This document shows, one piece after another, positions 11,506-57,043 of a DNA stretch of 62,867 nucleotides. The translations under genes were made by a program, and so were the position numbers. Within the stretch, counting starts at the first letter, position 1. Each line of letters opens with the position of its first letter. A model generated the notes under the pieces. It was not told the origin of the DNA. It saw only the letters and a list, made by a program, of their open reading frames with translations, and made no database searches. Source of the stretch: a virus. The stretch lies in the IMG/VR virus record IMGVR_UViG_3300032050_000130, positions 1 to 62,867 of that record. One strand, given 5' to 3'.

Positions 11506-11862
11506 TTATTTACTAGCTGATTCAGTTTGTTGAATTCTGCTTGGTGCACCTGGTTGATAAATAACAGTTCCTTGTTCTAAATCGATTTGGTGTCTAGGGT
11601 ATTTTTCTTCTAAAGAATCAACCACACCTTTTAACTCTCTACTCTTATCTTTAAAAGTATCCTCTGCTTTTTCAAGAATTTCATCTAATCTAACTAGTTC
11701 TGAATTTAATTCTTTTTTTCTAATATAGATTTGTCCGAAATCATTTATTAAAGCTGATAAATCACCATTTAATGATTTAATTTTATCAACTACTTCTGCT
11801 TCTAACTTTACAGTTTCTAAATCAATAGACTGCTTTTGTGGAATTTTATCTAATTCTGCCAT
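11506..11862 (-). CDS. Small coiled-coil phage protein, paralogue of 15451-15735
   Basis: This 118-residue protein is almost entirely helical, with heptad-like spacing from about residue 12 to 88, followed by IDLEQGTVIYQPG and a polar tail. It resembles the protein at 15451-15735, which shares the pattern of helix, GQ-x2-(I/V)R-x2-EL, a second helix, then ID-x3-GTV. Similar small coiled-coil proteins occur in T4-like phages of aquatic hosts. Function unknown. The two copies lie either side of the heptosyltransferase/GT4 genes. A 19-base repeat element lies 18 bases upstream of its ATG. Confidence 0.75.
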   Translation of the reverse strand: MAELDKIPQKQSIDLETVKLEAEVVDKIKSLNGDLSALINDFGQIYIRKKELNSELVRLDEILEKAEDTFKDKSRELKGVVDSLEEKYPRHQIDLEQGTVIYQPGAPSRIQQTESASK

Positions 11863-11879: not shown

Positions 11880-11898
11880 TTTGTATATATAAGTATAT
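11880..11898 (-). promoter_or_regulatory. 19-base repeated upstream element, copy 2
   Basis: This is identical to 8638-8656 and lies 18 bases upstream of the ATG at 11862. It touches the stop codon of the gene at 11898-12287, so it fills the whole gap between the two genes. Confidence 0.4.
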
Positions 11899-12287
11899 TA
11901 TTTTTTATTTTTTAAAATGTTAGTGGTACTAAACCCTTCGATTTTATTGAAAAATTCTATTTTTGGAATATATTCTACTCCTATTATTTCGTCATATTTG
12001 TAATCGTTACCAATAACCATAACATCAGGTCCCCATTCTTTGATTCTTTCTATCAATTCCGCATCGGAACTAAACGATACAACACTATGTACACTTTTTA
12101 TATTTGATAAAAATTCAATTCTATCGTTTAGGTTGTTATATGGTCTATTTTCTCCCTTTTTGGATTTTACTCTTTCATCCGTATCAATACCAACTCTTAC
12201 TTCTCCAAATGTTTTCGCAAATTCCAATAAACGTAGATGTCCAACATGAAGTATATCAAATGTACCATTTACCCAAACCTTATTCAT
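11898..12287 (-). CDS. Cytidylyltransferase-like nucleotidyltransferase, HldE C-terminal type
   Basis: This 129-residue enzyme has GTFDILHVGH at residues 8-17, the HxGH signature of the TagD/HldE/cytidylyltransferase family. NRPYN, a VIGNDYKYDE stretch and a late GFSTTNIL (the family STT/ISTT element) follow. It would attach a nucleotide to a phosphorylated sugar or polyol. Beside a heptosyltransferase-like gene, an ADP-heptose-forming role is the most natural inference, with glycerol-3-phosphate as an alternative substrate. The length fits a stand-alone domain. Its ATG overlaps the stop of the heptosyltransferase-like gene by one base, so the two are co-translated. Confidence 0.85.
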   Translation of the reverse strand: MNKVWVNGTFDILHVGHLRLLEFAKTFGEVRVGIDTDERVKSKKGENRPYNNLNDRIEFLSNIKSVHSVVSFSSDAELIERIKEWGPDVMVIGNDYKYDEIIGVEYIPKIEFFNKIEGFSTTNILKNKK

Positions 12288-13429
12288 TATAAAAATTTTT
12301 CCAATTCTTTAATTACCATTTGTCCTGTAATATATTTAGTACATTCAAATTGTCTATGTGTACCTTTATGGTCTGGACACCAGTTCCAATCCCCTGCATT
12401 CAATCTGATTCTATTGAAACAACCTTCACATTTCCCTTCAGGTGAACCTATTCGTACACAATCTTGCATTTCAGCCCATTTATAAGAAAATCCACTTACC
12501 AAAACGGTTGGTACTTCTAATGCCCAACTTAACCAACTTAATCCACTACCAATTCCAATAAATGCGTTTGAACGTTTTAATTCTTCCATTACATTTTCAA
12601 TTGGACCGTTTGGATGATGAATGATTCCTTTTGGAAGCTTATTACCCATATAATCATCACCTTCTTTTGATATAAGTCTTACGGTGTATCCTTTAACATT
12701 TAACCAATCAACAACTTCTTGCCATCCGGTTGGATTATTCCAAAATTTAGATTGTGCAGTTCCAAATACGCCAATACATACTTGTTTTTCTTTTTGTAAT
12801 GTTTTAACTTTTTTTAGTTTTGGCTTTACTTCAACATATTCCAATCCTAATATGTCAGAACACATTTGTTGTAATGTTACCGCTTTTGGGTCAATAGGAT
12901 TTTTAAAAAAGTTTACCGAACTATCTTCATTATAAAATAATCCGATTGTGTGCATGGAATATAAGTTTTCTACATTTGTTCCTGGTTTTACGAATTGTAG
13001 TTCTGGATATTGTGTTTCAAACATATCGTTCATAAATGTGGAAACTATTACCTTACATTTATGCTTTTTTCTAAATTCATCAACATATGGAAACCATGCT
13101 AAAGAATCTCCTAATGCTTTTGAATCTAATGCAATATAAACTCTTTTATCCTTTGCATCGTATGTATGTTCAAACCATAATTTTCCATTTTCAAATATTT
13201 CAATTTTCCATTCTACAAAATATTCAATACTACATCTTGCCCAACAATTATTTGTAATTTCTGATGTGAAGTGAACTTTATTAGTTTTATTATCAATAAA
13301 TTTTATAAGATAATTTGATACTTTCGGTCCTTTTATTTCTACAAAGGGGCCCCTAACAAAATGAAATAATACTCTGTTTTGTACTTCTACTTTATTATTT
13401 TTATTCTTTTTTAAATTATTATAAATCAT
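12287..13429 (-). CDS. Heptosyltransferase-like glycosyltransferase, TibC/AAH type
   Basis: This 380-residue GT9-like enzyme has an N-terminal beta-rich part with SEITNNCWARC, then YIALDSKALGDSLAWFPYVDEF at about residues 120-140, a Rossmann half with GVFGTAQSKFWNNP, and GIGSGLSWLSWALEVPTVLVSGF near the nucleotide-sugar site. Near the C-terminus four Cys are spaced C-x2-C-x13-C-x11-C, resembling the iron-binding finger of bacterial autotransporter O-heptosyltransferases (TibC, AAH). Those enzymes add heptose to Ser or Thr of secreted proteins. A start at 13438 would need TTG; the ATG at 13429 overlaps the previous stop by one base. The acceptor is unknown; a Thr-rich protein is encoded nearby. 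Confidence 0.85.
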   Translation of the reverse strand: MIYNNLKKNKNNKVEVQNRVLFHFVRGPFVEIKGPKVSNYLIKFIDNKTNKVHFTSEITNNCWARCSIEYFVEWKIEIFENGKLWFEHTYDAKDKRVYIALDSKALGDSLAWFPYVDEFRKKHKCKVIVSTFMNDMFETQYPELQFVKPGTNVENLYSMHTIGLFYNEDSSVNFFKNPIDPKAVTLQQMCSDILGLEYVEVKPKLKKVKTLQKEKQVCIGVFGTAQSKFWNNPTGWQEVVDWLNVKGYTVRLISKEGDDYMGNKLPKGIIHHPNGPIENVMEELKRSNAFIGIGSGLSWLSWALEVPTVLVSGFSYKWAEMQDCVRIGSPEGKCEGCFNRIRLNAGDWNWCPDHKGTHRQFECTKYITGQMVIKELEKFL

Positions 13430-15084
13430 TAGTCCCAAGTTTTTATTGTTTCATCAAGTAATGAATATCCTTCAACTTGCTTACTATACACTTTATTAGT
13501 AGTGTATCTTAATTCTTGATGGTGATAGAATATGTGGTTAAACCAAAGGTCACCAACATCCCATTCACAATCTTTTATTCTTTGATTCCACCATTCTCTA
13601 TCGGTATTCCTTAACAAATAACAATGTGCCAAATCTTGATTATGAGCGGTTTTACTAAAATCCTCATCCACTACTTCTTTATATTGACTTAAGTTATTTG
13701 CCAATCCAATATAGTAAACGTTATTCTTTTCTGCTATATCACATGCTTTATATACTATATCAACAAATTCTTCAACGGTTGAATAAATAAAACCATCTGC
13801 TTCAAACACTAATGTATAATCGTAATCTCTATTTAAATTTTCAACTGCCATTTTATGTGCCAAATAGCAACCATAATGTCTTCCAGTAATCCAACCCAAA
13901 CCAGCTCCAGGATATAATTCTCCAGGTTTATTATCTTTACTTAAATGGTCAGGTCTTCTACAATGTTCTTTTGGTGCAAAATCTTCATAAACTTCATTTA
14001 CAATTGGAACATAGTCCATTCCATAACTTTCCAATTGACGAATAGATTTCATACTAAATCGTTCTCTATCGTTGTATGGGGTTGTTAGTAAATGTTTTAT
14101 TTGTATTCTTGGCTTTTCTGAAAATCCTTCTTTAAATTCAGGTTTTAGATTTTCTATAAGAATTTGTTTAGTTGCATTTGTATCATCGGTTATATATGTA
14201 ACCAACGGATTGGCATCATATGTATCCAAATATGTATATAATTTTCTAAAGATGCATTTCATTTTAAAAGATAATGCTTCTTTTATAGAAAGAGGATTTA
14301 GTTCTAATATTGATGAAAAATAAAAAAGGTCACATGCCGCATAAAACGTATCAACATCATCACGCTCTCCCCAAACAATACAATTATCTGGTTTGTTTTT
14401 CATCAATGGTGACCAATATGTTTCGTAATTCATAGCCTGATTACCTACGAAATGAAATTTAATTTTATACTTTTGTAATTTTCTTGCTATTTCAAATATT
14501 TCCGCTTGGTTTTTTCCAGGCGAAAATAGCCCAACCATTAAAACATGTTTGTAATCTTTTTCTAATCCCAATTCTATTTGAGATTCCTCTTTATTAAATG
14601 AATATTCTTCTATTGGATATTCCCAAGTAGTTAATTCAACACCAAGATTAGATTCTTCAAATTTCTTTTTACTCCATTCCGATACCAACACATATCTATC
14701 TGGTTGATATACTATATCCGAAGGATTTGTAAACGAACCATGTGTTGTTGCAACAATATTATATTTTCTTTTATTATCAAATATTATATCCAACACATAT
14801 TCTGGAAGGTCAAACTGCGGTATCTCCTGAAAATGTATTATATCAGGATTAAAATTTTGAATTACATCTATAATTTTAGATTTATCTTCTCCCAATGTAT
14901 GAACGGGTACTAAACTTTTAATACGATTTTTTTGTACCACAAATGCAGTACCACCACTATTGTTTATTTCAACAACTTCAATTTGAAAATCAGATAAAAA
15001 ATGCTTTATCTGTTTATAGGTATATTGTGGTTGTCCACCCGTAGAAAGGTGCGGACATATGTAAAGTAACTTCTTTTTTTGCAT
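13429..15084 (-). CDS. Two-domain glycosyltransferase, GT4-like plus GT-A-like
   Basis: This 551-residue protein joins two glycosyltransferase-like parts. Residues 1 to about 310 form a GT-B enzyme of the GT4 kind, with YICPHLSTGGQPQYTYKQI at the start, VGLFSPGKNQAEIFE mid-way and an ELNPLSIKEALSF stretch near the donor site. Residues about 350-551 look like a separate GT-A or GT25-like domain, with an acidic VFEADGF resembling a DxD metal site. No signal peptide or membrane helix is seen, so it acts in the cytoplasm. It precedes the heptosyltransferase-like gene with a one-base overlap and probably extends the same glycan. Confidence 0.82.
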   Translation of the reverse strand: MQKKKLLYICPHLSTGGQPQYTYKQIKHFLSDFQIEVVEINNSGGTAFVVQKNRIKSLVPVHTLGEDKSKIIDVIQNFNPDIIHFQEIPQFDLPEYVLDIIFDNKRKYNIVATTHGSFTNPSDIVYQPDRYVLVSEWSKKKFEESNLGVELTTWEYPIEEYSFNKEESQIELGLEKDYKHVLMVGLFSPGKNQAEIFEIARKLQKYKIKFHFVGNQAMNYETYWSPLMKNKPDNCIVWGERDDVDTFYAACDLFYFSSILELNPLSIKEALSFKMKCIFRKLYTYLDTYDANPLVTYITDDTNATKQILIENLKPEFKEGFSEKPRIQIKHLLTTPYNDRERFSMKSIRQLESYGMDYVPIVNEVYEDFAPKEHCRRPDHLSKDNKPGELYPGAGLGWITGRHYGCYLAHKMAVENLNRDYDYTLVFEADGFIYSTVEEFVDIVYKACDIAEKNNVYYIGLANNLSQYKEVVDEDFSKTAHNQDLAHCYLLRNTDREWWNQRIKDCEWDVGDLWFNHIFYHHQELRYTTNKVYSKQVEGYSLLDETIKTWD

Positions 15085-15450: not shown

Positions 15451-15735
15451 CTATTCAGATACTTCAAACGTAACCGTACCATCATTTAAATCAATTTCCG
15501 CATTTTTATACTTTCTTTGAAGGTCTGATAATACATTCTCTAATTGAAGACTTTGGTTATCCAACTTATCTTCTATTTGTTTTTTTATTTCAAGTATTCT
15601 TTTAGATTCTAATTCTAGCTCTCTGCTTCTTACAGAAAGTTGTCCTAAATCAAAGATATAACCATTTACATCACTTTGAATGTTTTTGATATTATCTATA
15701 ATATCTTCTGCTATTTTTTCGGTTTTTGTTGCCAT
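15451..15735 (-). CDS. Small coiled-coil phage protein, paralogue of 11506-11862
   Basis: The ATG at 15735 gives 94 residues beginning MATKTEKIAED. The longer reading to 15843 would run through the upstream motif and into the radical SAM gene, so it is rejected. The protein is a single long helical, Glu/Leu/Lys-rich coil followed by IDLNDGTVTFEVSE. The pattern matches the protein at 11506-11862, so the two are probably duplicates. Function unknown; a small virion or assembly component is possible. Confidence 0.75.
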   Translation of the reverse strand: MATKTEKIAEDIIDNIKNIQSDVNGYIFDLGQLSVRSRELELESKRILEIKKQIEDKLDNQSLQLENVLSDLQRKYKNAEIDLNDGTVTFEVSE

Positions 15736-15748
15736 ATGATTGTTTATA

Positions 15749-15757
15749 TATAAATAT
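15749..15757 (-). promoter_or_regulatory. ATATTTATA motif, candidate phage promoter
   Basis: This exact copy, inside a longer alternating AT run, lies 13 bases upstream of the ATG at 15735. It helps fix that start. Confidence 0.45.
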
Positions 15758-15769
15758 ATATGTTTTAAA

Positions 15770-17767
15770 TTATTCAAAAATTGCAGAAGCACATCCTCTA
15801 CAAATCGTTTCATATGAGTTTTCAACCATTTTAACATGCTCATCAGTTCCCCAAAAATCTCTCAATTCCTGCGTTTTAAAATCCCCAAACTGCATTTCCA
15901 TTTCATAATCATTACAACAAAGGAACGCTTTTCCACTTGCATTTACATGAACCCACCCAATAGGTCTACCACCAACCTCTCTACCATTTCCACACCCAAT
16001 CACTTTTTTATCAGCAACATTTCTTTTCAAATTTCTTTCTATTGCAGGTTTGTTACTCATTACTTCATCCAGTAGTCCAGCTCTATCAATAAGATATGGT
16101 ACTGTAAAAATATTCACACCTGGAAATAATTCTTTCGCTTTTTTCTCTTGCTGAACTAACTCTCCATTTTGTACATCTAAGTCAATATCCTGTGGGAATT
16201 GTGGACCTTTTTGTAACCAACCGCCTTTCTCAACAAATGATAATTCATGCGAACCATTTATTTGAATTGAGAATGCTTTTCGTTTTACCATTTCTGGTAA
16301 TTGTTCTACTGCATATTTTATATTAGATATTAGTTTATCAAATTGCTTTATATTAATACCACTTCTCTTACTCCAAGTATCCGCATCAAATGCAGGTGTA
16401 TTTAGGCAGATACCACTTAAACAATCTTGATACTCTTTTAGTATATCAACTCTTTCCGGTGTTAGTGGTATTCCATTTGAAAGTACCATCGTTACTAATT
16501 TATACTTTCTACATATTTTAAGTATTTCTTCAAAGTGCGGATATAAAAGAACTTCGTTATAATGCGCTGTGTAAAATCCATTAAATGCTTTTGATACTAG
16601 TCCATCTGGTCTTTCTCTTTCATCGATAAGATTTTTAATTATCTTTTCAAATAGTTCAGGACTCATTACTTCTTTACCGTGGTCAGGATTTCCTTTATAT
16701 CTTACTGGGCAAAACCAACATTTAGCATTACAAACTCCATATGGGTCTATTTGTAAGTTTGTTATTTTATAATCATTAAATTGAGTTTGAACTAAACTCA
16801 TTTTTGGGTGTTCAATTAATATAGATGTTTTTGCGGTTTCACAAATTTCTTTCCAATAATATGAAGAAGCAAACTTATCACTTATATCTAACTTCGCATT
16901 ATAAGGAAGTTTATCCGTGTATGCCCCTTTATAAAATAAACCTTTAGCATACGAATGTACATGAGTTGAATCTGCCACAACTCCTGCATTATGTAGTATA
17001 GGATATTTTTCTACTTCCGAAATATCACCAGTTACCCAACCAAAATCCAATCGTTCATCTACTATTGTTTCATGTCCCGCTAACCAAGCATTCCAAAGTA
17101 AACTCCACATACCCGCAGTCCATTTTTGTATTGGATAATCGTATTCAGTTTTTTTAACATGCAAATGTTCAGTATCACAAAAATATTTATATAAATTTAT
17201 ACTATCAGTTTCTACTTTATCCCAAAATTCATATGTAGTGTTTTTAACAATATATTGCGCTCCACCTGAATTATTATTTAGTAGCTTTGGTATTAGTGGG
17301 TCTATTCCAACTATTTCACACATTTTTTTATATGTATGGTCACCTTTACCGATTATATAATCATAATTTATATAAAATTTAGTATTAGATAAGTACCAAC
17401 TATTACCTTTTATCATATCATCAAATTTCGGTGGTTTTGTTAAAACTATATCCGAATCATGTAAAAATAAAACATCATCTTGAATTTCTGGCCTTGCAAC
17501 AATATGTTGCTTCATTAAATTAAAATAAATAGATGGTTGATAACCTTTATCGTTTCTAGTATCATTATAAAAGAAAAATCGTATAGTATTGTAATGTAAC
17601 ATTAATTTCTTCCATTCATCCGGAACAATACCATTTTCTATACCACATACAATATCAATATAATTTGGATTTACTCCCATTTTTTTGAAGTTGTTAATTA
17701 GAACTTCAACTTGCCAAGTGTAATAAGTTATTGCCGGTTGACAACAAATGTAACGAATTTTTTTCAT
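15770..17767 (-). CDS. Glycosyltransferase-like and radical SAM/SPASM-like fusion protein
   Basis: This 665-residue protein has two parts. Residues 1 to about 320 resemble a GT-A nucleotide-sugar transferase, with DDVLFLHDSDIV as a DxD-like metal site near residues 100-110 and a later GGAQYIVKN stretch. Residues about 330-665 are a radical SAM domain with the cluster motif C-x3-C-x2-C (Cys346, Cys350, Cys353). More Cys lie at about 592, 617-618 and 654-657, in a pattern like a SPASM auxiliary cluster domain. Such enzymes modify peptides or sugars by radical chemistry. The substrate is unknown; the location points to glycoprotein or glycan modification. The fusion is unusual for a phage. Confidence 0.85.
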   Translation of the reverse strand: MKKIRYICCQPAITYYTWQVEVLINNFKKMGVNPNYIDIVCGIENGIVPDEWKKLMLHYNTIRFFFYNDTRNDKGYQPSIYFNLMKQHIVARPEIQDDVLFLHDSDIVLTKPPKFDDMIKGNSWYLSNTKFYINYDYIIGKGDHTYKKMCEIVGIDPLIPKLLNNNSGGAQYIVKNTTYEFWDKVETDSINLYKYFCDTEHLHVKKTEYDYPIQKWTAGMWSLLWNAWLAGHETIVDERLDFGWVTGDISEVEKYPILHNAGVVADSTHVHSYAKGLFYKGAYTDKLPYNAKLDISDKFASSYYWKEICETAKTSILIEHPKMSLVQTQFNDYKITNLQIDPYGVCNAKCWFCPVRYKGNPDHGKEVMSPELFEKIIKNLIDERERPDGLVSKAFNGFYTAHYNEVLLYPHFEEILKICRKYKLVTMVLSNGIPLTPERVDILKEYQDCLSGICLNTPAFDADTWSKRSGINIKQFDKLISNIKYAVEQLPEMVKRKAFSIQINGSHELSFVEKGGWLQKGPQFPQDIDLDVQNGELVQQEKKAKELFPGVNIFTVPYLIDRAGLLDEVMSNKPAIERNLKRNVADKKVIGCGNGREVGGRPIGWVHVNASGKAFLCCNDYEMEMQFGDFKTQELRDFWGTDEHVKMVENSYETICRGCASAIFE

Positions 17768-17784
17768 AGTAATTAATTAATGTT

Positions 17785-19152
17785 TTATAAACACGATGTA
17801 CAGCTTACTCCTGTGGTTACCGTTCCAAAGAACAATGGTAAATTAGCTGGCCCAGGGTAACCACCAAGTCCAACCTGACTCCACGTTTCTCCACCAAACG
17901 ATATACATCCAGGTGTACTTCCTGCTATACCTTCATAGGTATATTGTGCTCCACCATACGCACCTACACCGGTACACGGTTCGTAATCCCAATATTCATA
18001 GACTATTGCAGCTGTAGTTGTTGTAGTTGGTGCTGCTGGACACGAAGTACAATCAGTTCCCACATAAGTAGAACCATCACCCAAATCAATATCAAATGAA
18101 GGACCAAACGTAGGCTCAAGTAATCTAACACAGGTATATGGTGTAGGAGTTTCAAATACACTAAACGCTACTTGGTCAACACTAAATCTTACAACCAAAG
18201 TAGTTGCCGAATAACAATATTCAGCACTCCAATAGAAATATGATGGTGCAGCCGTTGTAGTTGTAGTTGTTGTAGGTGCTTCCGTTGTAGTTGTAGTTGT
18301 TGTAGGTGCTTCCGTTGTTGTTGTAGTTGTTATAGGTGCTTCCGTTGTTGTTGTAGTTGTAGTAGTTGTTGTAGGCGCTTCCGTTGTAGTAGTTGTTGTA
18401 GGCGCTTCCGTTGTAGTAGTTGTTGTTGGTGCTTCAGTTGTAGTAGTTGTAGTTGGCGCTTCCGTTGTAGTAGTTGTTGTTGGTGCTTCAGTTGTAGTAG
18501 TTGTTGTTGGTGCCGCAGTTGTAGTAGTAGTTGTTGTTGGTGCCGCAGTTGTAGTAGTTGTTGTAGTTGTTGTAGTTGTAGTAGTTGTAGTAGTTGTTGT
18601 AGTTGTTGTAGTTGTAGTGGTTGTAGTAACCGATAAACACGTACCCTTATCATCTAAAGTTCCATTATCACTAATAATAAAATAATTAGTTCCATCTGAA
18701 TAATATCCATTGGGTGCGGGAATTGTCAATCCACTATTAGTAAATATTTGTAGTGTATTTTGTAACACAGTTCCTCCAAACGAATAATAAGTTGTTGGTG
18801 ATGATGTATAATCGTAACAAGAATTTGCGGCAGAAGAAGCATGATATCCCAAGCTAAACGATGAAGGAGCCAAAGTTGTAGTTGTTGGTGCTGGTGGTTC
18901 TGGTGGTGCTGATGTGGTTGTTGTGGTTGTGAATGTAATAGATGCTGATAAACAATCACTGGTCGCTGTACCAAATGTTTCAACAACCGAACCTCCAGGT
19001 ACGGTATATTCATCAGTTTGTGCGGAGAATATTATTGAACCAATTTTAGAAGGTACAAAAACAGTTACTTCATTTCCTTCACATTCAGTCCATGTAACAT
19101 CGCCAGATGTTCCATTTGGTAAGGTTGCTCTATATAGTGTTGATGATGGCAT
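17785..19152 (-). CDS. Thr-rich mucin-like secreted-type or virion surface protein
   Basis: This 455-residue protein has three or four short Cys-containing beta-rich modules joined by Thr tracts. Residues about 75-92 hold a short Thr/Pro linker. Residues about 176-302 are nearly pure Thr, broken by EAP, AAP or IT, ending at SYFYWSAEYC. A third short Thr run lies near residue 380. Each module has Gly/Tyr-rich sequence and paired Cys, and the protein ends TSCL. No signal peptide is seen, so it is more likely a virion decoration or fibre than an exported protein. The Thr/Pro tract is what O-glycosylated mucin-like stalks look like, and glycosyltransferase genes are adjacent. Function unknown. 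Confidence 0.75.
   Translation of the reverse strand: MPSSTLYRATLPNGTSGDVTWTECEGNEVTVFVPSKIGSIIFSAQTDEYTVPGGSVVETFGTATSDCLSASITFTTTTTTSAPPEPPAPTTTTLAPSSFSLGYHASSAANSCYDYTSSPTTYYSFGGTVLQNTLQIFTNSGLTIPAPNGYYSDGTNYFIISDNGTLDDKGTCLSVTTTTTTTTTTTTTTTTTTTTTTTTTTTAAPTTTTTTTAAPTTTTTTEAPTTTTTTEAPTTTTTTEAPTTTTTTEAPTTTTTTEAPTTTTTTTTTTEAPITTTTTTEAPTTTTTTTEAPTTTTTTTAAPSYFYWSAEYCYSATTLVVRFSVDQVAFSVFETPTPYTCVRLLEPTFGPSFDIDLGDGSTYVGTDCTSCPAAPTTTTTAAIVYEYWDYEPCTGVGAYGGAQYTYEGIAGSTPGCISFGGETWSQVGLGGYPGPANLPLFFGTVTTGVSCTSCL
18245..18627 (-). repeat. Thr-codon tandem repeat tract
   Basis: This region encodes the main poly-Thr stalk. The plus strand repeats units such as gttgtagtagttgttgttgg, with gcttc or gccgc spacers that encode the EAP and AAP steps. 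Mixed ACT, ACA and ACC codons and near-identical units of about 24-30 bases suggest growth by slippage or unequal recombination. The stalk length is expected to vary between relatives. Confidence 0.85.
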
Positions 19153-19638: not shown

Positions 19639-22600
19639 TTATCTTGCCAATACTACAAAATCAACAAATTCAGGTGTCCAATGTCCAGCAAGGTTACCGC
19701 CAATATAGGTTGTTACAATACCAGGACTAGTATGACTAGGTCTTTCTATTCTAAAAGAAAATCCACTAATACTTTTTCCAGTAATTACGGCCATATTTCC
19801 AACTTCTTGGCTAGCATATGCTACGTTTGACGTTGTGGTTTGAACAATATAATCCGTAGAATCCATTGGATTGGTAAAAATTACATCATAAATATTAAAT
19901 GAACCTACAGCTAATGTACTACTAATATTGTAACGATTTAAAATAGTATAGTTTGCAGCATTTGTAATACCACCACCATTGTATCTAATTGTTCCAAATG
20001 CTTTTACTGCAGATGGATTTCCATATCCATTACTATATTTACTAATCGACCTATCGACCATTAAACTACCTGTGATTTCGGTTGAAAAGTTATAAGAACC
20101 ACTTACACCATCTCTTACCCTCAAATACTTATCATCTGCCAATACGGCCTGGAAGCCACCACCATTTATAATAGTACCCGCTGATATTGTTTTTATTGTT
20201 ACAGTTCCAGTAGATGCTGCAAACAAGCTTGTATCTACTTCCGAATCAAATCCATACGGAGGATACTGAGACGGGTCAGATGTATCATTACTATGCGCGT
20301 ATGCGTATCCAACTAAAGTTAAATAATAAGTTACTCCAGATTGTAAATCTGCCAATATTGTCATTTTTGTTGCCGGCAAATAAGAAGTTTGAGATCCTGG
20401 ATAATAAGATATTGTATATTGAAATCCGTTCCATTCATAATATTGATTTACCGTACCTTGTGCAGATGCAATTGCATAGTTTGAAGTTTCTACATAATTA
20501 GTAAATGGCTGTGGATAATGTCCTCCTGTTGTGAGAATCAAACGTAAGTATAAAGTCCCATCCGCTGAACCATTTGCGGTTACATAATTATTATAACTGA
20601 ATGGTAAATTATATGTTATAACATGTTGACCGGCTGCTTGAGTGGTGAACGAACCATTTGAACTTGGTATAATATTATAATCATATGCAATAGTTCCACC
20701 ATAATATGGGTCAAATGTTCCATCATTTGGTACACCATTAGTTTGATTTGATGAAGTAGTATATGTTGGTAAAATAGCATTTGGATATGTTATGCCAGTT
20801 GGTTCTGGTAATGTTAATTTTGTATTTGCGAAAAATCTTAAACTACCTGCGCCATCAAATACCGCAATTGATTCGGATGGTTCTGAATATAATCTAATAT
20901 TTTGGTCTGCTGATATTATTGATCCAGGTCCTATAGTCCATCCACCAATTGTACCATCATTTGAATTAATAGAACCATTTATAGATAAATCTTCACCGTT
21001 CCAAAGAAGCGAACCAGATACTCCCTTTAATGATAATTTCGAAACCCCTTGGTCAAATCCCATAAAAATTCCAGTATTATCATAACCTTGAACTTGAGAT
21101 TCTGTAACCCAGTTACCAGGACCAATACTAGAGCTTATTTGTCCAATAGATAAATAAGGATTAGCATTAGAACCACTTTCATTTGCATTTAAAACAATAA
21201 GTGAATTTGCTCCTCTTGCACCGATATTAATAGTTTTATCAACATATTGTTCTACTGCAAATAATACATCGGTTGCTACTGAACTGAATTGTGCACCAAA
21301 CGAAGTCCAGTTTGTATTTCCGCCACCAGGATAATTCCAAAATGTACCGGCACCTTGAGTACCCGCACTTCCATTCAATCCCGTATTATTTGTGAGATAG
21401 TATGTACTACCATATTTAGTAATATCTTTTCTTTCGGTTGTATGAAAATATCTTTCATTTGGATTAAATAATCCCCTATATACAACACCAGGACCAGGAC
21501 CCCCAGCAGTACCAGTTGTGCCCGCGGTACCAGTGGTGCCGGATGTGCCAGTTGTTCCAGATGTACCAGCTGCAGCGGATACTGCCCAAGTATTGGTTGC
21601 ATCCGGTGGATAACCGGTATTAATATTGTTATCGTTTGTAGAAGTATGTGTATTTGAATTTATCCATGTAGATGATGCATATCTTACAGTATCGTCTGGA
21701 TAATAGGTTACCCCAGAAGCCCATATACCTCTATAACTTCCTTCAGGAATACCAGGTTGTCTTTGACGTATAGAACCAACTATAGTCAATTGGTCACCAT
21801 CCCAAAACATTCCCTTACCAGATGTACCAGTTGTTTTAATTGAGAAACGTCCTGTTGTACCATTTGCACCGTCTTCATAAACACCCATAAAAATACCGGG
21901 TCTATTATACCCAATTACACCCGGTCCGCTAATTGAAGTTCCTGTACCCGATGTTCCTTGTGTACCCGTTTGGCCTATGGCAATATATGGGTCAGTTCTA
22001 CCACCCGCTAATACAATATTGGCAAAAGCACCAGTTCCATCTTTAGTACCAACATTTAAAGTATTCTTTACATATGATTCTTCAAATATCGCAATCTTGG
22101 CCGATACAAAAAATTCTTCTTGTCCTAAATACTGCCAATATGTTGTATCAGTATATGGTGCCGAACCATCTGGTTGTTGTGCTCCAACCGGTGTTCCAGG
22201 TCCACTACCTGTTATAGCAGCCCAATAGTGTGTTTCTTTATTTATTGTTGCTGGGTCAGGCCAAATTACAGCATCTCTTCTTTGGTTTGCTATTTCAGAT
22301 ATATAATCAATAGTTGAACTCCATATACCTCTCATCACAATACCAGGACCAGTATTACCTTCATATACTACTGATAGAGAAAGAGTTTTATAAAGCGTTT
22401 CTCTACCTTCACAATCTATTTGGAATATAATTTCACCGGATGAAATTGTTTCAGGACTTGACCAATTACTTATACCTGCAAAAGATGCCGGACCACCCGA
22501 AACATGAGAACCAGCCGTTAATCCACCGGCCAAAGTTAAATGTCCAGAGTATGATAGAATACTTACTCTACATTGATTTGGATATCCGGTTACACCATAT

Positions 22601-25600
22601 GCATCTAATTGCCCTCCGCTAAAAGTTGAAACATTTGTTAATTCTAAATCTCCTCTAAAAACTCTTATTGTAGTTGTAGATAAATCAAATTCGACTTCTC
22701 CAGAAACTCTATATATAATTCCAGCGTTTTCACTGGATAAGTTTGCACTATAAGGTGCCGGTGGTGTAAATTGAACTGCTAATGATTGTGTTACAAAATC
22801 AATTTGTCTATTTTTTTCATAATCGATTTTATAAATAATTTCAGCACTATGATTAACCGCAGGTGCGTACCAACTAACTATATCGTTAATTGCCGCAGGG
22901 TTACCTATCAATCTATTGGGTGGTGCAACATTAATCCAAGAAGATGTAGTAAAAATTGATGCAGAATAATATCCAAGGTTACCAATTAAATTTCCTAAAT
23001 AATCATTAACTTCTTGCGATATAACGTATGATGATGTATGTGCTAATTGAGTTGTACCTTTAAATGCCGAAATTTGCATTCCACTTCCCGTAAACTGCGT
23101 TGTCCACAAATCAGCGGTTATGGATGCATTGGTATTTGTTGCAGAGTATTTGTATGCATCTGCCCCACCCTTAATACCGGCTATTGTTAATTGTGCTTCT
23201 GCTTTTATTATTGATGGTGGTAATGGAACTGATGGAGTTACAGTTGGTGCCGCACCATCGGTTAATTTTACTTTCCATGTTTTGTTTTCACCAGGTCCTG
23301 CAGCATCACCACCACTTATTCCGCTAAATTCACAAAACGGCGGTGTTCCTTCCAATACACTAGGCCCTGCATAAAATGTTTCACTACCATCCGATTCTAC
23401 ATAATACAAATATGCATTCGGTCCATCAGTTTGACCAGGTATGTACGAACCTGTTGTGTTGAATGCAGTTACGGTAAGTGTAACATCACCAACATCAGTA
23501 TATCCATCTCTATCGTAATTAATTGTAGCCGTTGATGCTCTAAAATCCAATGAACGTGCATTTGGTGGTGCTACGTTTTTTGTAAATGTTTGAGTCCTAG
23601 TAAAAATAGAAGATGTATATTGATGCCCGCTCCCCAATGCAAATGGATATACTTGAATTGTATATAAAGCACTTGCAGAAACATATGGTGCATCAAACCT
23701 ATTATAATTTATAGTAGCTGTACTTAATGAAGATGATGATAATGAACCCGTTCTTATATTCCAAACTCCAGAATTACGAGTTTCTATTGAATTTATTCTC
23801 CAAGTACCCGGTGCAGTTGAACGCGTTGTAAAGGTAAGAAAATCATCACCTTCTTTAACAGTCAATGTAGTGTTCGTACTTGCATATGAAGAAATATAAC
23901 CAACTTCATCCGCAGGTATTGCCACCGATGTTGGTGATATTACAATCTGAATCGGTGGAGGTCCATCTAATATTTTTGTAAAATACTGATACACACTCGC
24001 TGTATAAACCGATGATGTGTAATACGGTTGAATCTCTAATGGAAATTCAATACTTCCACTTAAATTAGTCATATTAGATGATGCACTAAAAATAAGTGAA
24101 TGAGTATAGTTGTTATCAAATCTTATATTACCATTTGTTATATTATTTGCTACAATAGATGCTGTTGCAATATGGAATGTTCCAGGAAATCTACTTCCAG
24201 TAAATAACAAATATCTAGACCCTTGCTTCAATCTAATTTCACCAGTAGATGGTTTATAATCATTTACAATACCTCTTGAGTTTGCATTAAGATTTACATT
24301 CGCAGGAACTATTTCAAATACTATACTTTCATCTCCAGGTTTACCTTCTGGAACAATTGTAAACGTTTTATTAATGCTTACTGATTCCGAAGAATATGGT
24401 TCAATATAAGTCCAATTTATTGTAAGAGTTTTACTTTGAGATAAAGGTGTTCCTACAAATTGATTTTCTAAAGTAGAATTTATAATGTAGTTATTATCAT
24501 CAGTTGCACTTATTTTAATATCAGAATTTACACTCTGAGTCATATAATATACCCAATACTCTGGTACAAAATCTGAATTTATAGACATCGATGGGTAAAC
24601 CATAACTGATGCCGAAATTGGATTTGAACTTGTACCCCTTCTATAAAACGATGCAGTTGCACTTGCAGATGGTGGAGTAAATACTTTTGATAATCTTGGA
24701 TTTATAGTAAATGCATCAGCATCGTAGGTTACAAATCCAGCATCAATACCATCTAATAAATCCGTTAATGTTAATGTTGTATAAATTGATGCAGTTACAT
24801 TAGGATTTGTTGGAGTAGGTTCTGAACCCGATGCTATTAAGTAAATAGTTCTTTGCCCATCTATTGAATCTCTATTAAAAATTGCATTATAATCAAGTTC
24901 TCCAGAACCGGTAACACCTGGATAAATTCCTTTTACAAATCCACTGGCAGATGCATCGGTCAATGTTACATAATATGAACCAGAAGCAACGTATAATCTA
25001 TTACTAGAACGGCCGTATGGCAATCCACTTCTAATATCTAATTCGTTTATTCCATCTATTCTTACTGCCTGAACTTCAAGTGAACCAGATGGGTCATTAT
25101 TTCTAATTACAGTTCCTCTATATGGTCTTATCTCATAATTTACACCACCCTTACCATCTACAACTCTTGTTATGATAATGGAATCATTTATTCCTTCACA
25201 CTCACCGGTAAATTCTATATATTGAACAACAATATCTTCGTTAGAACCTGTAAAGTTTGCAACAGTTAAAGTTAATAAATCAGTTTCTCTATTCAAAAGT
25301 AATCCAGGCACTTGTCCCCCAACGTATTGAGAAGAAGATAATTCATTTCCAAAAAAATCAAAAGAACGAGATGTATATGTTACCGAACCGGTTAAATAGC
25401 TTTTTATTACATCAATCGAAATTACGGTTGGTGGAATAGGGTTACCATTTCCGGATCCAGAATCAAATTGGAAATATAAAGAAGATGGAACTAGTTGTAA
25501 ATCTTTATTAATTACATTTAAATTACCACCATCAAATGTTTTACTTTCTTCAACAACTACAGGAATATAATTGTTATTAATATCGTAAAACTGAAATCTA

Positions 25601-27177
25601 AAATCAAATGTTTCTCTCGGTAATGTTCTCGGTATTGGTTGAATAAATGAGATTTCATCCGGAGAAAATGCAGTTTCTTGTGATGCTCTTAAACTTACAT
25701 CCGATATATACCATGCATTTCCTTTAACTTCAAAAAATAATTTTACATCCGATAAATCTTCCGCTTTAAAGTTTGCAGTTATTTGAGATTTTTGTAATAA
25801 ACTATTATCGGAAGTTACATTTAAAATATTTTGCTTTGTGCCTACATTTGTTATTACATTGTTATATGTAGACTGTTTAGAACCACTTAAATATACCAAA
25901 AGAGTATCAGTAGTATTAATTGGACTACCCGCTCTAACGTTAAATGTTAAACTATATTCACTATCAGCATTAATATCTAAAGATTTAGTTGTATAGAATA
26001 AATTTGTTCCTGAACTGTTTAATTTAACCGAGTTGTATAGATACGTTTGATTAAATTCAGTAGATAAATTATTAGAAGAAGTTACCCAATAATTTTTAAA
26101 ATTAAATAAATCAAATCCACCATAATATTCTTCATTCTTAACAGTTGTTTCTAAATCTCTTAATATTTCATTAGACTCTAACTGAATTTCTTGTATAAAT
26201 TGATAATCGGAAAGGTCTGATTGAGATTTTCTGAATATCTTTACTCTAGCCACATCCCCTACGAATGTAGTTAAATCCGATAATGTTATTTTTGCAAATG
26301 AACCGGTAAGTGCGGTTTTTAAATTATCTAGTCCCTCAATATAATTAAATGATGCGGTATATCTTTGATTTGAAAAATCTGATACCAATCCATTTACGGT
26401 ATAAGGATTAGTAATTGTTAAATCAGTTTTACTAATTATATCATCTGCTTGTGAAAAGAAATTAAGGTCAGTAAATTCAATTGTTGTTCCAACTACCGAA
26501 CCCGTCCATGCACCACCATCGTTAATTTGTACAAGATAACTTGTTGGTTGGCTAAAATTTGTAAGGGGAGTACCGGCGGCGGGTACTTGTGAAAAACCAT
26601 CTACATGCCCTTTTTGTGTTATTGTAGAGCTAATATTAGAATAAATAGGTTTTACTATTTCCGTAATAGATACGTTTGGTCTTTTATAAAATCTTACCTT
26701 ATCCTCATTCGATAATAATCTATTAATTTTAAATGGTTTTTCCCATTTTACATTATAAACATTTTTCCACTCATCAGGTACATCTCTTACAACACCACCG
26801 TCATCTACATAACTTTTCAACTCACCGAGAATAGTAATCTTTGCTTCACCTATCGGAGTATCTTCGTATATATAAACTGCTATTAGTTTAGAAGTACCTT
26901 CATAGTATTCAGGTACACCATTACCAGGTTCATAATAAACAGGATTGCCAGCAACATCTAATATTTGTATTTTTATTTCAGTTGTTTCTTTTAGATATTC
27001 AGACCCTTCTATTAAAAATCCATTTTTACCACCAGTAAACGTATCGTTAAATTCGGTAATTTTAAAATATGTGGAATTCGGACTGTCATCTATCAGAAAT
27101 GTTTGAAAAGAACTTAATGTCTGTACTGGATTTAAATTACTTTTCTGACCATCTGCGTATTTTTTTATTCTTGGCAT
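19639..27177 (-). CDS. Giant tail fibre or adhesin-like virion protein
   Basis: This 2512-residue protein is the largest in the window. The N-terminal 170 residues form a conserved-looking attachment domain with FTGGKNGFLIEGSEYL and PEYYEGTSKLIAVYIYED. Residues about 180-1500 are beta-rich with repeated Ser/Thr/Asn-rich modules like Ig-type domains. At about 1735 and 1869-1897 there are short collagen-like G-x-y runs (GTSGTTGTSG). Near these are repeats such as YRGIWASGVTYYPDD and VYRGLFNPNERYF that resemble carbohydrate-binding W/Y-rich modules. The last 100 residues are probably the receptor-binding tip. It is divergent from the plus-strand gene and directly followed by its likely chaperone. 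Confidence 0.85.
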   Translation of the reverse strand: MPRIKKYADGQKSNLNPVQTLSSFQTFLIDDSPNSTYFKITEFNDTFTGGKNGFLIEGSEYLKETTEIKIQILDVAGNPVYYEPGNGVPEYYEGTSKLIAVYIYEDTPIGEAKITILGELKSYVDDGGVVRDVPDEWKNVYNVKWEKPFKINRLLSNEDKVRFYKRPNVSITEIVKPIYSNISSTITQKGHVDGFSQVPAAGTPLTNFSQPTSYLVQINDGGAWTGSVVGTTIEFTDLNFFSQADDIISKTDLTITNPYTVNGLVSDFSNQRYTASFNYIEGLDNLKTALTGSFAKITLSDLTTFVGDVARVKIFRKSQSDLSDYQFIQEIQLESNEILRDLETTVKNEEYYGGFDLFNFKNYWVTSSNNLSTEFNQTYLYNSVKLNSSGTNLFYTTKSLDINADSEYSLTFNVRAGSPINTTDTLLVYLSGSKQSTYNNVITNVGTKQNILNVTSDNSLLQKSQITANFKAEDLSDVKLFFEVKGNAWYISDVSLRASQETAFSPDEISFIQPIPRTLPRETFDFRFQFYDINNNYIPVVVEESKTFDGGNLNVINKDLQLVPSSLYFQFDSGSGNGNPIPPTVISIDVIKSYLTGSVTYTSRSFDFFGNELSSSQYVGGQVPGLLLNRETDLLTLTVANFTGSNEDIVVQYIEFTGECEGINDSIIITRVVDGKGGVNYEIRPYRGTVIRNNDPSGSLEVQAVRIDGINELDIRSGLPYGRSSNRLYVASGSYYVTLTDASASGFVKGIYPGVTGSGELDYNAIFNRDSIDGQRTIYLIASGSEPTPTNPNVTASIYTTLTLTDLLDGIDAGFVTYDADAFTINPRLSKVFTPPSASATASFYRRGTSSNPISASVMVYPSMSINSDFVPEYWVYYMTQSVNSDIKISATDDNNYIINSTLENQFVGTPLSQSKTLTINWTYIEPYSSESVSINKTFTIVPEGKPGDESIVFEIVPANVNLNANSRGIVNDYKPSTGEIRLKQGSRYLLFTGSRFPGTFHIATASIVANNITNGNIRFDNNYTHSLIFSASSNMTNLSGSIEFPLEIQPYYTSSVYTASVYQYFTKILDGPPPIQIVISPTSVAIPADEVGYISSYASTNTTLTVKEGDDFLTFTTRSTAPGTWRINSIETRNSGVWNIRTGSLSSSSLSTATINYNRFDAPYVSASALYTIQVYPFALGSGHQYTSSIFTRTQTFTKNVAPPNARSLDFRASTATINYDRDGYTDVGDVTLTVTAFNTTGSYIPGQTDGPNAYLYYVESDGSETFYAGPSVLEGTPPFCEFSGISGGDAAGPGENKTWKVKLTDGAAPTVTPSVPLPPSIIKAEAQLTIAGIKGGADAYKYSATNTNASITADLWTTQFTGSGMQISAFKGTTQLAHTSSYVISQEVNDYLGNLIGNLGYYSASIFTTSSWINVAPPNRLIGNPAAINDIVSWYAPAVNHSAEIIYKIDYEKNRQIDFVTQSLAVQFTPPAPYSANLSSENAGIIYRVSGEVEFDLSTTTIRVFRGDLELTNVSTFSGGQLDAYGVTGYPNQCRVSILSYSGHLTLAGGLTAGSHVSGGPASFAGISNWSSPETISSGEIIFQIDCEGRETLYKTLSLSVVYEGNTGPGIVMRGIWSSTIDYISEIANQRRDAVIWPDPATINKETHYWAAITGSGPGTPVGAQQPDGSAPYTDTTYWQYLGQEEFFVSAKIAIFEESYVKNTLNVGTKDGTGAFANIVLAGGRTDPYIAIGQTGTQGTSGTGTSISGPGVIGYNRPGIFMGVYEDGANGTTGRFSIKTTGTSGKGMFWDGDQLTIVGSIRQRQPGIPEGSYRGIWASGVTYYPDDTVRYASSTWINSNTHTSTNDNNINTGYPPDATNTWAVSAAAGTSGTTGTSGTTGTAGTTGTAGGPGPGVVYRGLFNPNERYFHTTERKDITKYGSTYYLTNNTGLNGSAGTQGAGTFWNYPGGGNTNWTSFGAQFSSVATDVLFAVEQYVDKTINIGARGANSLIVLNANESGSNANPYLSIGQISSSIGPGNWVTESQVQGYDNTGIFMGFDQGVSKLSLKGVSGSLLWNGEDLSINGSINSNDGTIGGWTIGPGSIISADQNIRLYSEPSESIAVFDGAGSLRFFANTKLTLPEPTGITYPNAILPTYTTSSNQTNGVPNDGTFDPYYGGTIAYDYNIIPSSNGSFTTQAAGQHVITYNLPFSYNNYVTANGSADGTLYLRLILTTGGHYPQPFTNYVETSNYAIASAQGTVNQYYEWNGFQYTISYYPGSQTSYLPATKMTILADLQSGVTYYLTLVGYAYAHSNDTSDPSQYPPYGFDSEVDTSLFAASTGTVTIKTISAGTIINGGGFQAVLADDKYLRVRDGVSGSYNFSTEITGSLMVDRSISKYSNGYGNPSAVKAFGTIRYNGGGITNAANYTILNRYNISSTLAVGSFNIYDVIFTNPMDSTDYIVQTTTSNVAYASQEVGNMAVITGKSISGFSFRIERPSHTSPGIVTTYIGGNLAGHWTPEFVDFVVLAR

Positions 27178-47802: not shown

Positions 47803-48852
47803 TTAATATTTTGATATATGTTCATATAATCTTTTGGCCTGTGCATATGACGGGTGGAATCCATCTCCAATAACACCTAAAGAAATTTTTGGAACAATTA
47901 TTGCATTTTTTATAATGTTTATTGATTTTTGAAAAACTCTATACTCTGCTAATAATTTTTCCATTTCAGCTCTTGTTTTTACTAATCTAGTTGGTTTTGT
48001 TGAATTATCTCCCATATCGATATCAGAATCATATCCCGTTACCACTACTGCTTCCGCTCCGGTTGCTCTAACTGTATCAACCATACTTTGTAATGCATTT
48101 AAAATTTGCGGAGTTTTTCTACCAGAATAACAATCGTTTACTCCACCATAGATATAAACTTTATCGTATTTATTAGTTTTCAGTCTTGCTTCCAAATTAG
48201 GTTTCATCCAAGCGGTAAGTTGTTCTCCCCCTTTTGCCAGTATCTCAATATTTAAATCCTTTCTTTGTGTTTGAAATATTCCTGACCAAGTATACTTTGA
48301 TATAACCGTAATAGAATCTCCAACTATTAATATTTTTTTACCACTTGGATTTCCAGGTGGCGGATTTTGTTGATTATTTTGTCTATTAGATGGTGCCGTA
48401 TTTGATTGATTATTTTGTCTATTGGGTGGAGTTGGTGGCGTACTTGCACCCGCATTTGTATTCTTCCATTGCCCTACAACAGAAACATAATTACTATTAG
48501 CCGTTATATTTGCTACCGCACCTGCCGCCGCTTGGGTAGCGGTTATCAATGGTGGAGTTGGTGTAACTAAAGTTGCACCTGTCCAATATATTTTTACTCC
48601 CTCTCCCATTGCACCTGTTAAATCATATGCATCAGTAGATGATAATCCGGTATTAAGTGCTCTAATAAATGCCGTTTTCATACCTTCAATATTTCCTTTT
48701 AAAATAGGAATTCGGTTTATACTATCTCCACCTCTCTTTACACACGCATCATATTCTTTTGCATAAACATCCGCAACGTATTCTATGCTAGATACTCTTG
48801 ATGCATCACATAATTTTTGAAGTACGTTATTTTTAAAAATTTCCCAAGACAT
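47803..48852 (-). CDS. SGNH/GDSL-family esterase in the baseplate hub region
   Basis: This 349-residue protein has an SGNH hydrolase domain from about residue 170. Visible are block I GDSIT with Ser180, a block II Gly in KGGEQ, block III GGVND and block V with Asp330 and His333 (DGFHP). The N-terminal 165 residues are a separate domain with an Asn/Pro-rich linker (TPPTPPNRQNN). Such esterases deacetylate peptidoglycan or polysaccharides. Two bases separate it from the SleB-like gene, so the pair may remove acetyl groups and then cut the wall. The substrate is not known. Confidence 0.82.
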   Translation of the reverse strand: MSWEIFKNNVLQKLCDASRVSSIEYVADVYAKEYDACVKRGGDSINRIPILKGNIEGMKTAFIRALNTGLSSTDAYDLTGAMGEGVKIYWTGATLVTPTPPLITATQAAAGAVANITANSNYVSVVGQWKNTNAGASTPPTPPNRQNNQSNTAPSNRQNNQQNPPPGNPSGKKILIVGDSITVISKYTWSGIFQTQRKDLNIEILAKGGEQLTAWMKPNLEARLKTNKYDKVYIYGGVNDCYSGRKTPQILNALQSMVDTVRATGAEAVVVTGYDSDIDMGDNSTKPTRLVKTRAEMEKLLAEYRVFQKSINIIKNAIIVPKISLGVIGDGFHPSYAQAKRLYEHISKY

Positions 48853-55846: not shown

Positions 55847-57043
55847 TTAATTACCTTTTGATGGAAATCTAGTCCATCCATTTACCCATAGAGGTTTATC
55901 TAATTCAGGTATAACCACATCTATCTCTTTATTACTCTTTGAAAGTGCTAATGTTTTCAATTGGTCATTTGTTAAGATTGTAGTTGCTTTACTGATAAAG
56001 TTTAAAGTAGGATTAAATGTTCCTACTGAATTGTTTTCAAATACCGAAACGCCATCTTTTACGAATTGTGTAGTTTCATTACTTTCCAAACTTAAACCAC
56101 CTTTCATCCATCCCCAAATTACACTATTCTTCATTGTGAATTGAGTTGCTCTCCTAAATCTCAAACCTAAATTGTGGTTTGCTAATGCGGTAGATACATT
56201 CGGTCCAACTAAAATCATATTATAAAGTTTCGGATGTGTGTATGGAGTTGCAGTTGAACCTGTTCCATCGTTATCACATTCTACACCATTTCCAGCATCA
56301 CCATTATCTACGAATTGTGGGTCTCTCTTTGCTACACCATTCGTAATTGTTCCAGTAAATCCAAAATCAAAATCAAAATCATCATCTGCGGTTGCAAATG
56401 CATATAAGTTTCTTGGTGATACAGTTCCACCAAAGAATTCAAATGCATCATCGTTAGCATAGATAGTTTGAACATTCTCAATGATTGTTCCACTACCAAC
56501 ACCACCTAATGTTAGTGCGTTTATTTCCGAGTTTGGCATTGCTGCAATTCCTGCATATTCAATTCTTACAAAACGAAGAACACCACTATTATCTAAATCG
56601 TTTGTTCCACCAAATGGTCTACCTATACCACCTTCGATTGTTGGTTCTGATGTTCTATTGGTTTTTGCTCTACCCAATATAACAATACCACCCCAATCAC
56701 CAGGTGCCTTTTCACCATTTGCTCTACCTGATGTAAATACAATTGGTTTTGTTGCAGTTCCTTCCGCAATTAATTGTGCTCCTCTTTCGATGCACAATGC
56801 TCCCTTTTCAGCTATATCAGATACGATTGTTGTACCCGGTTGAATGATAAGTTTTGCTCCATCGGTTACATATACATAACCTTTCAATGTCCAAACTTTA
56901 TCCGCAGTTAAAGTTGTTGTTGTATTAATGTTGCCGGTAAGTGTAGTTGATGTTGGAATGTTAATCGGTCCATCACCACCACCTAATTCTTTTTCGCAAC
57001 TCAATAATCCAAATGCTAAAATAGCTACTAATAGTTTTCTCAT
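55847..57043 (-). CDS. Outer-membrane lipoprotein paired with the TonB receptor
   Basis: This 398-residue protein has a lipoprotein signal with lipobox LLSC at about residues 13-16, followed by EKELGGGDG. Acidic and Lys residues just after the Cys are like Bacteroidetes signals for surface export. The rest is repetitive and beta-helix-like (AKLIIQPGTTI-like strands, GSGTIIENVQTIYANDDAF, TMKNSVIWGW). Such lipoproteins are coded beside TonB-dependent receptors in Bacteroidetes and may help capture the ligand. The ATG overlaps the receptor stop by four bases, so they are coupled. Host origin is likely; the ligand is unknown. Confidence 0.8.
   Translation of the reverse strand: MRKLLVAILAFGLLSCEKELGGGDGPINIPTSTTLTGNINTTTTLTADKVWTLKGYVYVTDGAKLIIQPGTTIVSDIAEKGALCIERGAQLIAEGTATKPIVFTSGRANGEKAPGDWGGIVILGRAKTNRTSEPTIEGGIGRPFGGTNDLDNSGVLRFVRIEYAGIAAMPNSEINALTLGGVGSGTIIENVQTIYANDDAFEFFGGTVSPRNLYAFATADDDFDFDFGFTGTITNGVAKRDPQFVDNGDAGNGVECDNDGTGSTATPYTHPKLYNMILVGPNVSTALANHNLGLRFRRATQFTMKNSVIWGWMKGGLSLESNETTQFVKDGVSVFENNSVGTFNPTLNFISKATTILTNDQLKTLALSKSNKEIDVVIPELDKPLWVNGWTRFPSKGN

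Follow-up and report, generated by a model that had tools for sequence, protein, structure and literature searches.

A gene among the fibre genes of a T4-like phage fragment encodes a protein that resembles the bacterial glycosyltransferases TibC and AAH. TibC and AAH (family TIGR04414) are autotransporter O-heptosyltransferases (PMC4358343). The question is what such an enzyme modifies in a phage, and with which sugar. The DNA analysed here, called the window in the following, is a stretch of 62,867 nucleotides from the IMG/VR record IMGVR_UViG_3300032050_000130. Genes for terminase, portal, fibre and tail proteins are present, most of them on the minus strand, and the gene in question lies in the structural module. 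No autotransporter was seen among the ORFs of the window. The coordinates of the features are collected in Table 1.

Table 1. Glycosyltransferase cassette and candidate acceptors in the window
Feature	Position	Strand	Size and basis
Small protein, role unassigned	11506-11862	(-)	Flanks the cassette on one side; position kept in relatives
HldE C-terminal-like (heptose-1-phosphate adenylyltransferase-type) nucleotidyltransferase (NTase)	11898-12287	(-)	129 aa; TIGR02199 is the best model
TibC/AAH-like O-heptosyltransferase	12287-13429	(-)	380 aa from ATG 13429; TIGR04414, PDB, AlphaFold2 model
GT4 glycosyltransferase with C-terminal domain weakly GT25-like	13429-15084	(-)	551 aa; GT4 = aa 3-317
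Small protein	15451-15843	(-)	Resembles the product of 11506-11862; in most relatives it immediately precedes the GT4 gene
Thr-rich, mucin-like protein (poly-Thr/EAPTTTTTT), alternative acceptor	17785-19152	(-)	33% Thr
Large tail-fibre/adhesin-like protein, candidate acceptor	19639-27177	(-)	2512 aa; ORF and position upstream of the glycosyltransferase genes
Collagen-like run GTSGTTGTSGTTGTAGTTGTAGG, candidate acceptor sites	21499-21567	(-)	Fibre aa 1871-1893, 23 aa

Some further genes of the window were recorded as observations in their own right. Upstream of the cassette, the product of 15770-17767 (minus strand) has a radical SAM and SPASM region in its C-terminal half, and its N-terminal half looks glycosyltransferase-like by eye; the gene is present in few relatives. 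A GDSL-like lipase/acylhydrolase domain (PF13472) is encoded among the baseplate and tail genes (47803-48852, minus strand), possibly as part of a host-polymer esterase. At 57040-59289 (minus strand) there is a TonB-dependent-receptor-like protein (Plug PF07715 and OMP_b-brl_3 PF14905), and several of its neighbours between 52834 and 62357 have starts resembling those of secreted or outer-membrane proteins. These proteins may act as receptor decoys or may block superinfection. As a clue to the host, the TonB-receptor-like gene gave 0 matches among 118 Bacteroidota genomes at E 1e-60.

The enzyme gene can be read from an ATG at 13429 or from a TTG at 13438, the latter giving an ORF of 383 aa (12287-13438, minus strand). 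We favour the ATG because it shares one base with the stop codon of the glycosyltransferase gene that precedes it (..TAATG..); residue numbers refer to the 383-aa form. The product matches TIGR04414 with 289.5 bits (cut-off 200) over the full length of the profile (7-373 of 374), whereas LPS heptosyltransferase models reach at most 26 bits, the score for heptosyltransferase I (TIGR02193) being 26.3 bits against a cut-off of 185.3. The sole real match in the PDB is TibC (E about 4e-58, full-length); a PHROG search gave no match. The AlphaFold2 model (pLDDT 88.7) aligns to TibC with a Foldseek TM score of 0.85 over 374 columns, as compared with about 0.5 for WaaC and RfaF. Full-length homology, an N-terminal beta-barrel and a GT-B core are common to this protein and to TibC of ETEC and AAH of DAEC (PMC4358343). 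A first reading, made from the sequence alone, had taken the protein for a GT9-like enzyme of the TibC/AAH kind, had proposed an HMM search against these families as a check, and had named a match to LPS heptosyltransferases only as the outcome that would speak against it. The profile scores and the model bear this assignment out, and that the gene encodes a TibC/AAH-type protein O-heptosyltransferase is well supported by sequence and predicted fold.

The active site points in the same direction. In TibC, Asp110 is the catalytic base, Thr226, Lys230 and Trp305 contact the donor, and Cys339, Cys342, Cys358 and Cys370 are iron ligands (PMC4358343). The catalytic and donor residues are present in the phage enzyme as D111, T227, K231 and W302. 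Its cysteines follow the spacing C337-x2-C340-x13-C354-x11-C366 and align with the iron ligands of TibC, exactly as the sequence-only reading had noticed when it likened this ending to the TibC/AAH iron finger. All four are retained by 32 of the 33 phage homologues and by 25 of 25 bacterial homologues sampled, so the pattern is not due to chance. The enzyme is thus predicted to carry a four-cysteine iron finger.

Strong bacterial scores against TIGR04414 fall into two groups, one at about 480-670 bits and the other at about 260-330 bits. In a midpoint-rooted tree, a split with 100/100 support sets the 15 classical sequences apart from 33 phage sequences and from 10 bacterial ones with lower-group scores, the latter being nested inside the phage diversity. 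TibC, AAH and the window's enzyme have the catalytic Asp, the Thr/Lys/Trp donor residues and the four-Cys finger in common, but the latter belongs to a separate clade, whose members occur mostly in phages and often form fusions with GT4 and methyltransferase domains.

The sequence-only reading took protein O-heptosylation to be rare in phages. This holds for cultured phages, where the enzyme was found in 4 of 50,697 records, but not for freshwater metagenomic phages, with at least 591 related stretches in a profile-guided scan of IMG/VR; freshwater phages that carry the enzyme thus form a large group. Within the lineage of the window it is near-core: all 21 terminase-linked loci that extend 6.5 kb or more upstream have it (20 within the locus, one in the wider record). 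L158 was rejected as a relative without the enzyme, as the gene sits just outside the locus in that record. An origin of the enzyme in the host phylum was rejected as well: the sole match among Bacteroidota genomes lies on a phage-looking contig (G008), and 0 of the 295 others had one.

The first base of the NTase gene is also the last base of the enzyme's stop codon (ATAATGAA). This one-base overlap, already pointed out in the sequence-only reading, is kept exactly in 56 loci. The NTase contains the motifs HxGH and STTNI, and its best TIGRFAM model is that of the C-terminal part of HldE (RfaE), to which it scores 98.9 bits (curated cut-off 181.5), compared to 57.7 bits for glycerol-3-phosphate cytidylyltransferase (TIGR01518); phrog_7878 is matched with 123.8 bits. 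The proposed HldE C-terminal type is thus right as to the best model, with a score that stays under the curated cut-off. Relatives often have a second gene after the NTase, coding for about 248 aa, with the HldE N-terminal kinase model TIGR02198 as its best match (104.3 bits, again under the curated cut-off, here 345) and the GAGD motif in 58/58 kinases; the window has the NTase only. The HxGH and GAGD motifs are common to HldE and the phage proteins, but the phage versions are two split genes in the order NTase-kinase. Sufficient downstream sequence was available for 161 loci: 52 of them have both genes, 19 only the NTase, one only the kinase and 89 neither (71 NTases and 53 kinases in total). 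An obligatory NTase partner was therefore rejected, as about half of the loci lack it; the ADP-heptose type of this partner is well supported, its presence optional. Because relatives often add the HldE-N-like kinase, the cassette leans towards ADP-heptose. As a separate observation, two large phage records that carry TibC-like genes (343 and 373 kb) contain elsewhere a GmhA-like gene (188 bits, cut-off 209; G1473:C1:119364-119834 in L427 and G1474:C1:118794-119264 in L428).

Two replacements in the enzyme make the donor less certain, and it may differ from that of TibC. Arg286 of TibC contacts the adenine, is required for activity and is highly conserved in the BAHT family (PMC4358343). The corresponding residue here is Val283, and an arginine is found at this position in 15/15 classical sequences, but only in 4/33 phage and 2/10 bacterial sequences of the clade to which the window's enzyme belongs. 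The residue associated with stereoselectivity, Pro300 in TibC, is Gly297, and the thumb hairpin is three residues shorter than in TibC. It is thus conceivable that a TibC-fold enzyme O-glycosylates Thr/Ser of the fibre with a sugar other than heptose, taken from a non-adenine nucleotide donor; the lack of an NTase in many loci and the place of the NTase within the wider cytidylyltransferase-like superfamily would fit as well. However, where the NTase and the kinase occur, their nearest matches are HldE-C and HldE-N, and the T, K and W contacts to the phosphate and to heptose O4 are invariant or nearly so across the homologues. We regard another sugar as unlikely; judging by these residues and genes, ADP-heptose is the likely, though not certain, donor.

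A GT4-type gene is a more constant partner of the enzyme than the NTase. In the window, its product matches PF00534 with 50.6 bits, and aa 3-317 of its model reach a Z score of about 22 to GT4 enzymes. In most relatives this protein has an extra methyltransferase domain (PF13578) between the GT4 and the C-terminal domains. An assignment of the C-terminal domain to GT25 was rejected, because PF01755 was matched only below threshold and in relatives, and a structure search with the whole model barely covered the domain. Microcystis phage Mel-JY01 encodes a single protein with both a GT4 and a TibC-like domain; long TibC-like fusions occur in many other phages too. The Mel-JY01 fusion (L160, 4747-8430, 1227 aa) is annotated as 'methyltransferase FkbM', an annotation that leaves out both its GT4 and its TibC-like domain. 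In a 343-kb phage record (L430, 4206-8240), ORFs beside a collagen-like fibre and a TibC-like fusion appear by eye to encode sulfotransferase-like and adenylyl-sulfate kinase-like proteins as well as extra GT9-like enzymes, suggesting sulfated glycans.

As to the acceptor, the two clades have different neighbours. In most loci of the classical type, the gene adjoins an AIDA-like GGx[AVT]-repeat protein; 0 of 12 classical genes have a collagen-like neighbour. Of the loci with bacterial members of the phage clade (Methylobacter, Polaromonas and others), 10 of 11 encode an adjacent protein with GTSGTSG-type repeats, a difference with a Fisher P of 1e-5 when kinship among the loci is ignored. These collagen-like proteins have signal-peptide- or lipoprotein-like starts, and the two that were compared with the Pfam collagen model both match it. 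Outside the window's lineage, T/S-rich collagen runs were found in 38 of 45 phage loci, as opposed to none of 35 control loci, all from one related group of phages that lack the enzyme. Conversely, among 45 viral records selected solely by their Gly-Thr/Ser-x collagen-like repeats, 25 contain the enzyme above the cut-off. In about nine in ten of the collagen-like triplets, Gly is followed immediately by Thr or Ser. Since related loci are counted, independence is overstated and the P values serve as indications only. In the genomes, the enzyme clade is associated with collagen-like repeats, and the association runs in both directions. The earlier reading of the gene as an O-heptosyltransferase is thus right about the family, but the classical autotransporter type has to be replaced by a separate clade with collagen-like neighbours.

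In the window, the candidate acceptor is the large fibre protein, whose homologues sit upstream of the glycosyltransferase pair across the clade; searches against Pfam and PHROG assigned it to no family. Where homologous fibres span the spot of the collagen run, a T/S-rich run of at least three triplets is present in 12 of 19, and in a second set of window-lineage loci a run of at least four triplets is present in 5 of 19. The run is thus short or missing in the window's own lineage, which counts against a collagen acceptor there. With the same chemistry, the main acceptor in this phage might be the poly-Thr protein or another fibre region, the collagen run being minor. The poly-Thr protein, with a Thr content of 33%, is encoded on the same strand a few genes before the enzyme, and the collagen run of the window is merely 23 aa long. 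Still, this ORF was found in the lineage only in the window and in L002, L009 and L070, while the enzyme is near-core, and the clade-wide partner is collagen-like. We therefore see little chance that it is the main acceptor here, and as a general acceptor it was rejected, as very few relatives have it.

What we infer is a phage-encoded module for protein O-glycosylation. The TibC-like enzyme would move heptose from a nucleotide-heptose, most likely ADP-glycero-manno-heptose, to Thr/Ser of a phage structural protein. In the clade, the preferred acceptors would be the collagen-like Gly-Thr/Ser-x repeats of the tail-fibre region, as suggested by the genomic neighbours of the enzyme. Heptosylation would take place in the cytoplasm, ahead of fibre assembly. 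The HldE-C-like NTase, together with the HldE-N-like kinase in many relatives, would raise the donor supply, and the GT4 partner would probably extend the heptose. The modification may serve to make fibres that are rigid, protease-resistant or receptor-binding. On balance, we find it somewhat probable that the module O-heptosylates Thr/Ser of collagen-like tail-fibre segments and that the GT4 enzyme extends the sugar.

The enzymes might instead alter the host surface (LPS or O-antigen) and thereby block superinfection. There is a precedent in pelagimyophages, where fibre-adjacent glycosyltransferases and rfaE were proposed as modifiers of the host O-antigen (PMC7029224), and GT4 and HldE-like genes occur in LPS synthesis too. 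However, by sequence, fold and iron finger the key enzyme resembles TibC rather than WaaC/RfaF, it is near-core and encoded inside the structural module, and collagen-like partners recur in phages and bacteria, all of which makes a role at the host surface improbable. Hypermodification of phage DNA bases is very improbable: some phage glycosyltransferases do act on DNA (as cited in PMC12619734), but TIGR04414 is a family of protein glycosyltransferases, the partners are collagen-like proteins and the site is among fibre genes.

The proposed module can be compared with known systems. The spore proteins BclA of Bacillus and BclA3 of C. difficile are likewise collagen-like and glycosylated by a dedicated glycosyltransferase, but they carry sugars other than heptose, whereas the repeats here are of the Gly-Thr/Ser-x type. 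To our knowledge, their glycosyltransferases are unrelated to the TibC-like enzyme. Mycobacteriophages glycosylate their own virion proteins (Freeman et al. 2023, as cited in PMC12619734); the acceptors given there are the C-termini of capsid and tail-tube proteins, as opposed to the fibre proposed here. In the open PMC literature, we found neither a phage O-heptosyltransferase nor a heptosylated collagen-like protein. As far as this literature goes, a TibC-like enzyme that decorates the phage's own collagen-like fibres would be a new use of the family.

In its general form, the proposal is that a mostly phage-borne clade of TibC-like enzymes uses collagen-like Gly-Thr/Ser-x repeats instead of autotransporter beta-helices, and that phages build heptosylated and extended collagen-like fibres with their own enzymes and partly with their own supply of ADP-heptose; for this wider claim, we see the balance as about even. 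If it is true, heptose would join the sugars known on phage virions, and the TibC/AAH enzymes would have a second class of acceptors. It would also hint at how some collagen-like proteins of bacteria and phages are decorated, and it would offer an alternative to the view that fibre-adjacent phage glycosyltransferases and rfaE-like genes are modifiers of the host LPS.
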